DNA of 42,215 bases from Desulfobacteraceae bacterium. GTDB taxonomy: Bacteria; Desulfobacterota; Desulfobacteria; Desulfobacterales; SKZT01. Every line of letters starts with the position of its first letter. Within the stretch, counting starts at the first letter, position 1. The notes below the pieces were generated by a model. That model did not search any database and had not been told where the DNA came from. It saw nothing but the letters and a program-made list of their open reading frames with translations. Position numbers and translations under genes: made by a program. The stretch is from the NCBI GenBank assembly GCA_011389745.1, contig JAABTQ010000028.1, positions 1 to 42,215 on the forward strand. Reading direction: 5' to 3'. Below, piece by piece: positions 7,629-29,967 of the stretch.

Positions 7629-10600
7629 TTAAAACTCGATCTTATCCAGCAAGGCATTGATTTCAGCCACGGTCTGCTGATCTGTACTGTGCCTTAAAGT
7701 AATCGCTCTGGCAGGACATTCACTGGGGCACATACCACACCCCTGGCATTTGGCGGGAACGATTTCGGAAATGCCTTCCTTGTTAATAAACGGCGCTCCG
7801 AATGGGCATATCCTCACGCAAGCAAGGCAGGCCGTACATAAATCCGGATCCACCACCGCATAGGTAGGCGATGTCTTCATTTTATCCTGACATAAAACTT
7901 TTATTGCCTGCTGGGCGGCACATTTGGCCATGGCGACAGCCTCATCGGCAAACCTGGGACTGTGGGCCAGACCGGCCAGAAAAATCCCCGCCGTGGGAAA
8001 TTCCACCGGACGAAGCTTAACATGGGCCTCCATAAAAAAGCCTTCCGGAGTTCTGGACAGCTTTAAGAGCCTGGCGAGCTTTTCGTTGTCCAAAGCCGGG
8101 CGAATCCCTGTACTCAGCGTTACAATATCAGGCGTAATTCTAAATTCCTGATGAGAACTTCGGTCGGTAAAATCAACAACAAGCTGTCCATGGTCATCAT
8201 ATACCACAGGTGCTTCATCAGGAATAAAGCGGAAAAAAAGCACTCCTTTGCGGCGGGCTTCCAGATAATAGAGCTCCTTGAAACCGAACGTTCGCAGATC
8301 TCTGTACAAAATAACCACCTGAATATCGGGATTAATGTCTTTCAAGGCAATGGCATTTTTTACCGCGGCACTGCAGCAAACCCGACTGCAATAGGCAAAT
8401 GTTTCGTTTCGAGACCCTACACACTGGATCATGACCACATTCTTGAGTTGCCTGGGCCATTGAGGATCACGGCGTAAACGTTCTGCCAGTTCTACCTGGG
8501 TGACAACCCGTTCATCCTGTCCATACCTGAATTCACCGGCTTGATACGCCGTTCCCCCACTTGCCACCACAACTGTGCCATAACTTATTTCATGTCGGGT
8601 TTCCGCATTGATAATGATACCATTAAAAGCTCCAATATATCCGGAATGTTCAGAAAGCTCACTGTTTAGATAAAGGGTGATGTTGGGATTGCTTCTCACT
8701 CGGTCTTCCAGCATACGGACAAGCTTTGGCGGCGAGTGGCCTTCCAGAGTGTGTGTCAGTTTTACCGCAAATCCACCCAACTGACCTGTTTTTTCCACAA
8801 GATGAACGTGAAATCCTTGTTTGGCCATTGTCAAAGCCGCTGTCATGCCGGCGAGTCCACCGCCGATCACCAGGCTATCATTGACGATTTTGTAAGTATC
8901 CGCCTCAAGCGGTTCCAGATTTTTTGCTCTGGCCACTGCCGCTTTTATAAGTTCCAAAGCCTTTGCCGTCGCCTTTTTTGTGTCTTTGCCATGAACCCAG
9001 GAACATTGATTTCGAATATTGGCCATATCCATGAGATAGGGGTTGAGTCCTGCCTGCTCCAGGGTTTTTTGAAACAATGGTTCATGGGTTTTGGGTGAAC
9101 ATGCAGCGATCACCACTCGGTTTAAATGATGTGCCTTAATTGTTTGGGCCAGCCTGTCCTGGGTTTCTGCCGAACACGTAAACATGAAATCCTGTGCAAA
9201 TGTCACATCATTATTTCTTTGAATCGCCGATAACAAAGTGGGGATGTCCACAACACCGGCTATATTGGAACCACAATGACAAACAAACACACCGACTCTA
9301 ATTTCCTGACCAGTTTCCGGAGTTTCTTCGATTTGATTGTCAGCACCCTGATTTTCATCTGGCGCCGGCAACATTCGGGCCTCTGAAAGTAAGCCTGATA
9401 CCTCTGCGGCCGCTGCACCCGCCTGGATGACTGTCTCCGGAATATCCTTGGGCGATTCCAAAACCCCGCAGACATATACTCCGGGGCGGGATGTGGAAAC
9501 CGGCTCATCAAAATCCCCGCAGGCAAACCCGTAAGGATTTAAATGGATATTCAGACGGTCTGCAAGATTTTTCCATCCTTTTGAGGGTTGAAAACCACTT
9601 GACAATACCACCAGATCGTATTCTTCTTCCACGGTGCCGTTTATATGATGATCAAAGGTTTCGACCACAAGATTTTCGCTTTGGGGATTTACATATAACT
9701 GAGAAATCATCGAGCGTTTGTATTGAACCTGGTGCTGAAAAGTAGCGCGCTCGATATATTCGTCAAACCCTTTTCCATGGGCACGGATATCCATAAAATA
9801 GATGACCGTTTCGGATTCAGGAAGATGAGACCGGGTTAAAACGGCTTGTTTTGCTGCGTGCATGCAGCATACGGAAGAGCAAAACGGACGGTTCTTGGAA
9901 ATATCCCGGGACATGACACATTGAATCCAGGCGATACGCTTTGGACTTTTACCATCAGACGGACGCTGCAAATGCCCGCCATAGGGCCCGGTAGCAGAGA
10001 GCATCCTTTCATACTGAAGCGATGTCACCACATTACGATATCGTCCGAAACCGTATTCTCCGTGCTCTTTTGTCAGGGCCAGCTCAAAACCTGCAGATAA
10101 GATGACCGCCCCCACTTCCAGAGTGAAATTTTCAACCTTCTGGTCAAACTCAACGGCACCCACAGGACATATTTTTTTGCACAGCCCACACTTTTTTTTA
10201 GTCAAATACAAACATTGATCAGGGTCTAAAGCATACTTCAAGGGAACTGCCTGCGGAAAAGGAATATATGCCGCTTTCCGCATCCCCAATTCGGTGTTGA
10301 ATGCATCAGGAACCTTTTTGGGACATTTTTCCGCACATTGCCCGCATGCGATACATTTATCCATATTGATATAGCGGGGCATTCGTCGGACATGGGCGGT
10401 AAAATGGCCGGGCACGCCGTCAAGGTTCATCAATTCACATGAGGTCATTATCCTGATATTAGGATGGCCTGCCGCTTCAACCAGTTTTGGCGAAAAAATA
10501 CAAGTGGAGCAGTCATTAGTGGGGAAGGTTTTATCCAATTGAGCCATTGTGCCGCCAACGCTGTGGCTCTTATCCGCCAAATAGACATAAAAGCCGGTGT

Positions 10601-19042: not shown

Positions 19043-19280
19043 CTCTCTTTTCCTTCTACCTTTCAAATGAAGCCGGTTCTGTTAAATCGTCATTGCGGCA
19101 AAAACCGGAATCCAGGTTGAACGTCTGAACCACCTACCCGAACTTTTTGAGAAATATGCGTGGATGTATCATACGCCCTTAATTTTTCATATAGAACAAC
19201 ATCCAAAATATTTTTTGGTTTTGATGATTTAGATATTGTTTTTCTTTTTTTAATCGCCTATATTTTTTGGTTTATGTAAA

Positions 19281-19326
19281 TAGTGCTTGAAAGAAAACTC
19301 CCCTCCCAGTGGGAGGAAAAATAAGG
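19281..19326 (+). repeat. One-ended copy of the MITE-like repeat in the argS leader
   Basis: From 19281 the sequence TAGTGCTTGAAAGAAAACTC and onward matches, base for base except for one substitution and one deletion over about 46 bp, the reverse complement of the right end of the intact element at 29694-29815. The similarity includes the CCTCCCAGTGGGAGG hairpin (19303-19317) and stops at about 19326, in the AAGGAG of argS. The other end of the element is absent. Confidence 0.85.
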
Positions 19327-19330
19327 AGAG

Positions 19331-21115
19331 ATGATGGACAGCGGGCAACTTAAAGAATCAATTTTAACTCAGATTGAACATGCTGCGGAAAAAACATTCG
19401 GAACCAGCCCTGATGGTCTGAACCTGGTTTATCCTCCCGGGGTTGACATGGGCGATTTTGCCTGCGGCTGCTTTCCCATGGCAAAACAATATCGGCGGTC
19501 ACCCAATGATATTGCCCTAAAAATTGCAAAAAATATCCCTTCCGGTGAAATCATACAAAAAGCCGAGGCTTCTGGTCCATACATCAACATCAAAGTTTCC
19601 AATGCTGTTTTATTTGGCGAAATCTGCTCGGAAATTATTAAAAAACAAGAAAAATTCTGCACGCCTAACACAAGTCCCAAAAAGCGTGTGATGGTTGAAT
19701 ACCTGTCCCCCAACACCAATAAGCCGCTACACCTGGGCCATCTCAGAAACGGTGCTCTGGGAATGGCGGTTGCCAACATCCTGATGGCTGCCGGGCACCA
19801 TGTGGTTAAGGCCAACCTTATTAACAACCGTGGAGTCCATATCTGTAAGAGTATGCTGGCATGGCAAAGGTGGGGAAATGACACCTCACCGAAGTCCGAA
19901 GGCATAAAAGGAGATCACTTTGTAGGCAAATGGTATGTAAAATACGCTCAGGAGGCTGAAAAAGACCCGGGTCTTGAAACTGAAGTCCAGAAAATGCTCC
20001 AACGGTGGGAAGCTGGTGATCCGGAAATCGTAAAGCTTTGGAAAATGATGAATGATTGGGTCTATGAAGGTTTTTCAGAAACATATAAAAAATTCGGTCT
20101 CAATTTTGATGTGTTCTACTATGAATCCGACACATACAAGCTTGGAAAAGACATCATCGCCAAAGGTCTTGAAAAACAAATTTTTCAAAAGATACTGAGA
20201 GATAACGGTGCCGGCGAAAATGTGGTGTTTCATCTTCCGGTGGAAAAGTTTGGCCTGGAAAAAAACGGAAATCCCAAAAAAATCACCGTGCTCCGTGACG
20301 ATGGCACCAGTTTGTATATGACCCAGGATATCGGCACGGCCATTTTGAAAGCAACCGATCACAACCTGGATCGATCCATATACGTGGTCGGAAGTGAACA
20401 GGTCCACCATTTTCAGTGTCTTTTTGAAATACTCAAAGCATTCGAATATCCTTGGGCGGATGGCTGTTACCATCTTTCTTACGGCATGGTCTATCTTCCC
20501 GAAGGAAAAATGAAATCCAGGGAAGGAAAAATCGTCGATGCCGATGATTTGATTGAAGAAATTGAAAATTTGGCAGCCCAGGAAATTTGCCGGAGAAATG
20601 AAGAAAATCCGTTATCCGAACAGGAATTGAAATATCGTAAACAGATTATCGGCCAGGGTGCAATCAAATTTTATCTGCTGAGGGTCAGAGCGATGCAGGA
20701 TATCCATTTCGACCCGCAGGAATCCATCTCTTTTGATGGATTCACTGGCCCATATTGTCAGTATGCATATGCCAGAATTTCAGGAATTTTAAGGAATGCT
20801 GAGAATCTTGGTCTTACCGCCGCATATGGTGACTCAAATCTATTAGGAAATGACGAAGAACTGCAATTGATAAGACACCTGGTAAGGTTTCCCGAAGAGT
20901 TTGAAATTTCCGTCAATGACCTGACACCTTCCCGGCTGGCTGTCCATATATTTAATACCGCAAAAGCATTCAACCAATTTTATAATAAACATCAGGTTAT
21001 CCATGCAGACACAAAAGAACTGGCAAAAGCGCGATTGTTGCTGATCAAAGCTGCCGGTACCGCATTGAAAACAGGTTTAAACCTCATAGGAATTGACGTA
21101 CTGGAAAGAATGTAA
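19331..21115 (+). CDS. argS: Arginyl-tRNA synthetase
   Basis: Class I aminoacyl-tRNA synthetase that charges tRNA-Arg; a tRNA-Arg(ACG) gene is also in this window. The 594-aa protein has the N-terminal Add-1 domain (about 1-115), the HIGH motif as HLGH (residues 134-137) in SPNTNKPLHLGHLRN, the connecting region with YVVGSEQVHHFQCLFEIL, the KMSK-like segment GKMKSREGKIVD, and an anticodon-binding domain ending in TALKTGLNLIGIDVLERM. Two ATGs are adjacent. The AAGGAG at 19323-19328 is 2 bp from the first (19331) and 5 bp from the second (19334), so translation more likely starts at 19334. That Shine-Dalgarno lies at the edge of a MITE-like repeat copy. It is followed by pdaD after 18 bp. Confidence 0.94.
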   Translation: MMDSGQLKESILTQIEHAAEKTFGTSPDGLNLVYPPGVDMGDFACGCFPMAKQYRRSPNDIALKIAKNIPSGEIIQKAEASGPYINIKVSNAVLFGEICSEIIKKQEKFCTPNTSPKKRVMVEYLSPNTNKPLHLGHLRNGALGMAVANILMAAGHHVVKANLINNRGVHICKSMLAWQRWGNDTSPKSEGIKGDHFVGKWYVKYAQEAEKDPGLETEVQKMLQRWEAGDPEIVKLWKMMNDWVYEGFSETYKKFGLNFDVFYYESDTYKLGKDIIAKGLEKQIFQKILRDNGAGENVVFHLPVEKFGLEKNGNPKKITVLRDDGTSLYMTQDIGTAILKATDHNLDRSIYVVGSEQVHHFQCLFEILKAFEYPWADGCYHLSYGMVYLPEGKMKSREGKIVDADDLIEEIENLAAQEICRRNEENPLSEQELKYRKQIIGQGAIKFYLLRVRAMQDIHFDPQESISFDGFTGPYCQYAYARISGILRNAENLGLTAAYGDSNLLGNDEELQLIRHLVRFPEEFEISVNDLTPSRLAVHIFNTAKAFNQFYNKHQVIHADTKELAKARLLLIKAAGTALKTGLNLIGIDVLERM

Positions 21116-21133: not shown

Positions 21134-21688
21134 ATGTATGTACCCAAATATCTTTTTTTTACCAAAGGCATCGGAGTTCACAAAGAAAAAATTGCTTCAC
21201 TTGAAATTGCTCTCCGGGATGCCGGGATTGCCCAATTAAATATCATGGAGGTTTCCTCCATATTTCCTCCTCATTGCCGAATAATCGACGCAAAAGAGGG
21301 TTTATCCATGCTTTCTCCGGGAGAAGTCACCCCATGTGTTCTGGCCAAAGCCCATTCAAACGAACCCGGTCGAAGAATTGTTGCGAGCATAGGCCTTGCG
21401 CTTCCCCAGGAAGACGGCAAGTATGGGTTTCTTTCAGCTCACCATGCATACGGCGAAACTGAGGAGGAAGGTGGAGAGTATGCCGAGGATTTGGCAGCCA
21501 CCATGTTAGCCAATACATTAGGGCTCGATTTTGATGTGGATAAGGATTATGACGAGCGAAAAGAGGTGTTTCGAATGTCGGGAAAAATCGTGGAGACCTG
21601 GCATACGACATTAGGAGCACTTGGCCATGATAATGGCAAATGGTTATCCGTGGTCGTTGCGGCGGTTTTTGCAGGAAGCCAAAAATAG
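21134..21688 (+). CDS. pdaD: Pyruvoyl-dependent arginine decarboxylase
   Basis: Decarboxylates arginine to agmatine, the first step of polyamine synthesis or an acid-resistance cycle. The 184-aa proenzyme has the family's self-cleavage site MEVSSIFPPHC. Cleavage between Ser41 and Ser42 would leave a pyruvoyl group from Ser42, as in the characterised archaeal enzyme. Further family segments are SPGEVTPCVLAKAHSNEPG, SAHHAYGETEEEGGEYAEDL and HTTLGALGHDNG near the C-terminus. The Shine-Dalgarno is AGGAG. The gene is 18 bp after argS, so the two form an operon that both uses arginine for translation and drains it to agmatine. A nearby gene encodes an ArgA-like protein. Confidence 0.9.
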   Translation: MYVPKYLFFTKGIGVHKEKIASLEIALRDAGIAQLNIMEVSSIFPPHCRIIDAKEGLSMLSPGEVTPCVLAKAHSNEPGRRIVASIGLALPQEDGKYGFLSAHHAYGETEEEGGEYAEDLAATMLANTLGLDFDVDKDYDERKEVFRMSGKIVETWHTTLGALGHDNGKWLSVVVAAVFAGSQK

Positions 21689-29655: not shown

Positions 29656-29693
29656 GATTACAATCTCCTGTATTTTCTGTTCGAACCATTATC

Positions 29694-29815
29694 TAGTGCT
29701 TGAACGAAAAGTCCATAATTCCCTCTACCATCGGGGGAGGGTCAGGGTGGGGGTTAAGAATATCAGTAACTTATTTTTCCCTCCCACTGGGAGGGGAGTT
29801 TTCGTTCAAGCACTA
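29694..29815. repeat. MITE-like element, 122 bp, with perfect 17-bp terminal inverted repeats
   Basis: Left end TAGTGCTTGAACGAAAA (29694-29710) and right end TTTTCGTTCAAGCACTA (29799-29815) are exact reverse complements. Both ends carry TA, which may be the target duplication, as in IS630/Tc1-type elements. The interior contains GGGGGAGGGTCAGGGTGGGG and the hairpin CCTCCCACTGGGAGG, but no reading frame. It is non-autonomous. A one-ended copy lies upstream of argS at 19281-19326. It sits between the divergent aminotransferase and SDR genes. Confidence 0.88.
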
Positions 29816-29967
29816 TCTATGAGATTCATCATTCTTGTTCAAGCAAAATCAGAAAATAGAGTACACAATTTCTCTATGTAAAAAATTGACTTTTTATAAT
29901 CACTGTTCTACACTTTTTAAAAACGTTAAGCTAAAATTCAATGGATACGGCACTAATCAGAGGCAAT

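Follow-up and report, generated by a model that had tools for sequence, protein, structure and literature searches.

The analysed window is the whole 42,215-nucleotide stretch of contig JAABTQ010000028.1 from a Desulfobacteraceae bacterium (positions 1 to 42,215, forward strand). It contains argS, directly followed by pdaD, and the leader of argS carries one end of a repeat that is dispersed over the genome. The features of the argS leader, the two genes and the nearest full copy of the repeat, a MITE, are as follows.

19277-19282, plus strand: TAAATA, probable left copy of a TANNTA target duplication, read from one side by the target rule of the full copies; the right copy is lost
19281-19325, plus strand: left-end fragment of the MITE (terminal inverted repeat, C-rich/G-rich hairpin region and AAAAATAAG), from repeat matches
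19283-19297, plus strand: terminal inverted repeat (TIR) GTGCTTGAAAGAAAA, one mismatch to GTGCTTGAACGAAAA, from the TIR search
19298-19301, plus strand: CTCC of the MITE, predicted by folding only to be the partner of GGAG in the Shine-Dalgarno (SD) sequence
19302-19316, plus strand: hairpin CCTCCC-AGT-GGGAGG, from folding
19323-19328, plus strand: AAGGAG, ancestral SD sequence of argS, its AAG overlapping the end of the repeat match; kept without the repeat in two relatives (G001 and G002)
19334-21115, plus strand: argS, arginine--tRNA ligase (TIGR00456, 445.8 bits, over the cut-off), starting at the second ATG as aligned with relatives
21134-21688, plus strand: pdaD, pyruvoyl-dependent arginine decarboxylase (TIGR00286, 108.9 bits, cut-off 106.95)
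29690-29819, minus strand: full MITE copy nearest to the argS fragment (29694-29815 between the TA ends; TATCTA on both sides)

Sequence comparison within the genome identified positions 19281-19325 as the left end of the dispersed repeat, for which 35 matching places were found genome-wide. A repeat search of the window returned the inverted pair 19277-19321 / 29775-29819 (93%), and positions 19280-19325 aligned with the minus-strand copy at 29770-29815 over 46-47 positions with one substitution and one missing G. The alignment score was 40, whereas the maximum in 2,000 Markov shuffles of the region was 13, and chance similarity was rejected on this basis; the claim of a first-pass annotation that about 46 bp upstream of argS match one end of a MITE-like element is thus borne out. 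The match passes through AAAAATAAG and, as that annotation had also described, ends within the AAGGAG of argS: the last matched base is 19325 and the final three are AAG. Six bases separate the hairpin from AAGGAG, in line with the proximity to the ribosome binding site noted earlier, but the hairpin lies at 19302-19316 and not, as given then, at 19303-19317. The argS copy is not a complete element; it is a remnant that comprises the left 45 bp only. Read on the minus strand, positions 19298-19320 resemble a terminator (a 10-pair stem followed by TTTTC), the sole such site in the leader. The same intergenic region also holds half of a second dispersed repeat, CGTCATTGCGGCAAAAACCGGAATCCAG, at 19088-19115, a motif that recurs at several other loci of the genome.

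A search of the whole genome with the TIR TAGTGCTTGAACGAAAA, allowing up to 2 mismatches, gave 73 matches (0 for the reversed control), and about 40 loci matched a full copy. The 26 complete copies have 60-130 bp between their ends, inverted ends GTGCYTGAACGAAAA and no coding sequence. Their flanking TANNTA words were identical in 12 of the 26 (permuted flanks: mean 1.2, maximum 6 in 5,000), readable as a duplication of all six bases or of the central two alone, with TA on either border. Because of these TIRs and TANNTA duplications on the set of 26 full copies, the repeat is identified as a MITE: it is short and non-coding, with terminal inverted repeats, target duplications, dispersed copies and ends common to an IS. 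In G001 and G002 these ends recur around interiors that differ in part, mostly with TANNTA flanks there too. At least one TIR match was found in 25 of the 40 genomes searched (the present one included), with counts far above the control in G002 (244), G026 (198), G039 (104) and G023 (67); counts of one to three in other genomes are at control level and have little meaning. The literature yielded nothing usable on TANNTA duplications or on Desulfobacter MITEs.

Regarding the source of transposition, inward-facing MITE ends enclose an ISNCY_1 transposase gene (NF033593) in a 1,898-bp segment of the same genome (C1:48350-50247; L241 / L304), which is likely, from this arrangement, the autonomous parent of the MITE family. 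The likeness to an ISNCY family IS lies in the same terminal repeats bracketing such a transposase; the difference is that this copy is broken by stops and frame changes and scores 277.7 bits, below the curated cut-off of 325. Its flanks show no exact duplication. The element presumably belongs to the ISDol1 subgroup or is ISDol1-like. In G023, the end of an ISNCY-family transposase gene is accompanied by a TIR of this kind, at a similar spacing. Near the remaining ISNCY_1 genes of the genome set such ends are absent, so that the link between MITE and ISNCY rests on the C1 element and G023. By this link, a Desulfobacterales MITE family with TANNTA duplications is now connected to an ISNCY-type transposase.

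Short, hairpin-bearing repeats with paired inverted ends and many copies are also what a REP/REPIN family moved by a RAYT tyrosine transposase would present, whose members are likewise small palindromes dispersed as inverted pairs. However, the MITE copies carry 6-bp target duplications, and the transposase associated with these ends is an ISNCY one, not a RAYT: the Y1/RAYT transposase domain PF01797 was not found in this genome (99.9% complete), whereas the positive control gave matches in five genomes including E. coli. A REPIN identity in place of a MITE was rejected on the duplications and the lack of PF01797 matches, and is scarcely credible.

The argS leader of the present genome (...AAATAAGGAGAGATGATGGACAGC) was compared with those of G001 (same genus, ArgS 76% identical; ...TATAAGGAGATATTTATGGACAGC) and G002 (same family, ArgS 69% identical; ...AGTAAGGAGAGACAATGGACAGC), neither of which has the repeat. 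These two were the only relatives with an alignable start region; more distant relatives have unrelated argS leaders. In both, TAAGGAGA...ATGGACAGC is kept at the same place. The start of argS is almost certainly the second ATG, at 19334, and on this alignment the SD sequence and start codon are ancestral and the gene's own, because G001 and G002 keep both without the repeat. The MITE-derived part is only the approximately 45 bp upstream of about position 19322, hairpin included. That the repeat itself gave argS its SD sequence, with the AAG of AAGGAG coming from the element, would account for the extension of the match into AAGGAG, but is highly improbable, since both nearest relatives, which are repeat-free, have TAAGGAGA in this position. 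The hairpin is missing from the relatives' argS leaders and was accordingly rejected as an ancestral leader common to them. The earlier suggestion that the initiation region is built on a mobile-element remnant, and the comparison of leaders proposed as a check on it, therefore hold for the hairpin, which comes from the MITE and is absent from the relatives, and fail for the SD sequence and start codon, which are conserved in them. This comparison shows how a MITE can remodel an essential gene's leader right up to the very border of the ribosome binding site and yet leave that site in place. The type of ArgS encoded here is common to Bacteroidota (about 40% identity) and some Desulfobacterales; for most of the order, as far as searched, ArgS is of a clearly different type (25-40% in partial matches).

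The probable account of the locus is insertion followed by deletion, with a native SD sequence and start and the fragment as a tolerated passenger. A MITE with ISNCY-type ends would have entered the argS leader at a TANNTA word, on the 5' side of the native SD sequence; a later deletion would have taken the right half of the MITE and some of the native leader, and could have fused AAAAATAAG of the MITE interior with the native TAAGGAG via their common TAAG. The argS leader, presumably transcribed with the fragment in the argS mRNA, therefore combines the left end and hairpin of the MITE with the gene's own SD sequence and start codon. At the junction, AAAAATAAG (as in the closest copy) and TAAGGAG have 4-5 bases in common, a microhomology that is short and A+G-rich, so that a chance overlap is possible. 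The right MITE end and the right target duplication are gone, leaving one side from which to judge the insertion site.

Pairing of the MITE-derived CTCC (19298-19301) with the GGAG of the SD sequence (19325-19328) was predicted with a probability of approximately 0.96 in six of six fold windows, and the hairpin is intact. Both are compatible with co-option of the remnant as a translational control, in which CUCC beside the hairpin would pair with the native GGAG and make the synthesis of ArgS and PdaD responsive to conditions. Against this, the argS leader folds no better than shuffled sequences (z 0.22), the predicted cost of opening the SD sequence, 2.8 kcal/mol, ranks 15th among the 27 genes of the window, and the initiation region taken as a whole belongs to the more open ones there. 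The predicted cost is higher (3.4 kcal/mol, via another structure) in G001, the same-genus relative without the MITE, and the argS fragment was seen in one genome only. Such co-option is unlikely. An unusual occlusion of the argS start was rejected on the mid-range opening cost. The idea of the first-pass annotation that the hairpin could tune ArgS/PdaD synthesis may be regarded as possible but unsupported. A consensus scan of the argS leader found no sigma-70 promoter, and no Rfam leader RNA was found at 19281-19340, only two tRNAs in the window reaching gathering scores. Most probably the MITE fragment is a passenger that is tolerated and affects initiation or mRNA stability no more than modestly, its neutrality being judged from an absence of evidence.

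A second fusion of this kind was found on the minus strand of C2 at approximately 7936-7985 (L042, G000:C2:7000-9000), where sucA (2-oxoglutarate dehydrogenase E1) is immediately preceded by another left-end MITE fragment, in the fused leader TTGTGCTTGAATGAAAACGCCC...GGGGCTGGGGGAGGAAAAAAAAATGATGACC. The sucA gene of G001 has the common upstream sequence (TTGACA...TCAGGG...ATTAAT) and start, with CATAGGGAAAAAATGAC and no repeat. Here, too, some bases at the junction are common to GAGGGAAA of the MITE interior and TAGGGAAA of the native site. The repeat probably supplies the SD sequence of sucA, as suggested by its GGGGAGG, and the earlier idea of an initiation region built on the element fits sucA better than argS, since this GGGGAGG is the sole good SD sequence of sucA in the present genome. 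It would be a far-reaching generalization, and a very unlikely one, that left ends of the MITE repeatedly fuse to SD sequences (argS, sucA) through microhomology of their purine-rich interior and that the resulting CUCC/hairpin leaders are new control elements of core genes. Two SD fusions among about 40 loci do not demonstrate a preference for start codons.

The Correia elements of Neisseria (CREE/NEMIS) already offer examples of MITEs that lie in leaders and even touch the start codon. They resemble the present family in being MITEs (about 100-157 bp) often found immediately before genes, and in one reported gonococcal case the last A of the element doubles as the A of the ATG (PMC2649163). 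Promoters, an IHF site and cleavage by RNase III are on record for Correia elements (PMC10969869; also PMC2649163) but not for the present MITE. Of 17 positions compared, 13 agree between TAGTGCTTGAACGAAAA and the Correia TIR TATAGTGGATTAACAAAAA (PMC5039591); shuffling the whole TIR gives this level about once in 10,000, and shuffling the part after TAGTG gives it in 2.4%. The core appears to differ, and the target reported for Correia elements is TA. With a TIR agreement of 13/17 only and a duplication of TANNTA rather than TA, the present family is kept apart from the Correia elements. The agreement might point to an ISNCY-type transposase for them. The argS fusion and the ISNCY link leave the general picture of MITEs in leaders unchanged and represent ordinary MITE biology.

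Among the MITE copies, two further forms were observed. In G002 (L206, L216 and other loci), versions of the element of 36-37 bp, with the ends almost back to back, occur beside 141-bp ones and are mostly flanked by TANNTA. In several MITE copies, the CCCASTGGG hairpin is the insertion site of a second element (ends like CTGRTCWT...ACACACTTGACAC), which is possibly, from this position, a hairpin-targeting element. The copies with this second element in the hairpin are as follows.

C34:147758-148105 (L066): MITE copy with the second element in its hairpin
C20:27199-27583 (L049): MITE copy with the second element in its hairpin, CCCASTGGG on both sides
L027 and L060: MITE copies with the second element in their hairpins
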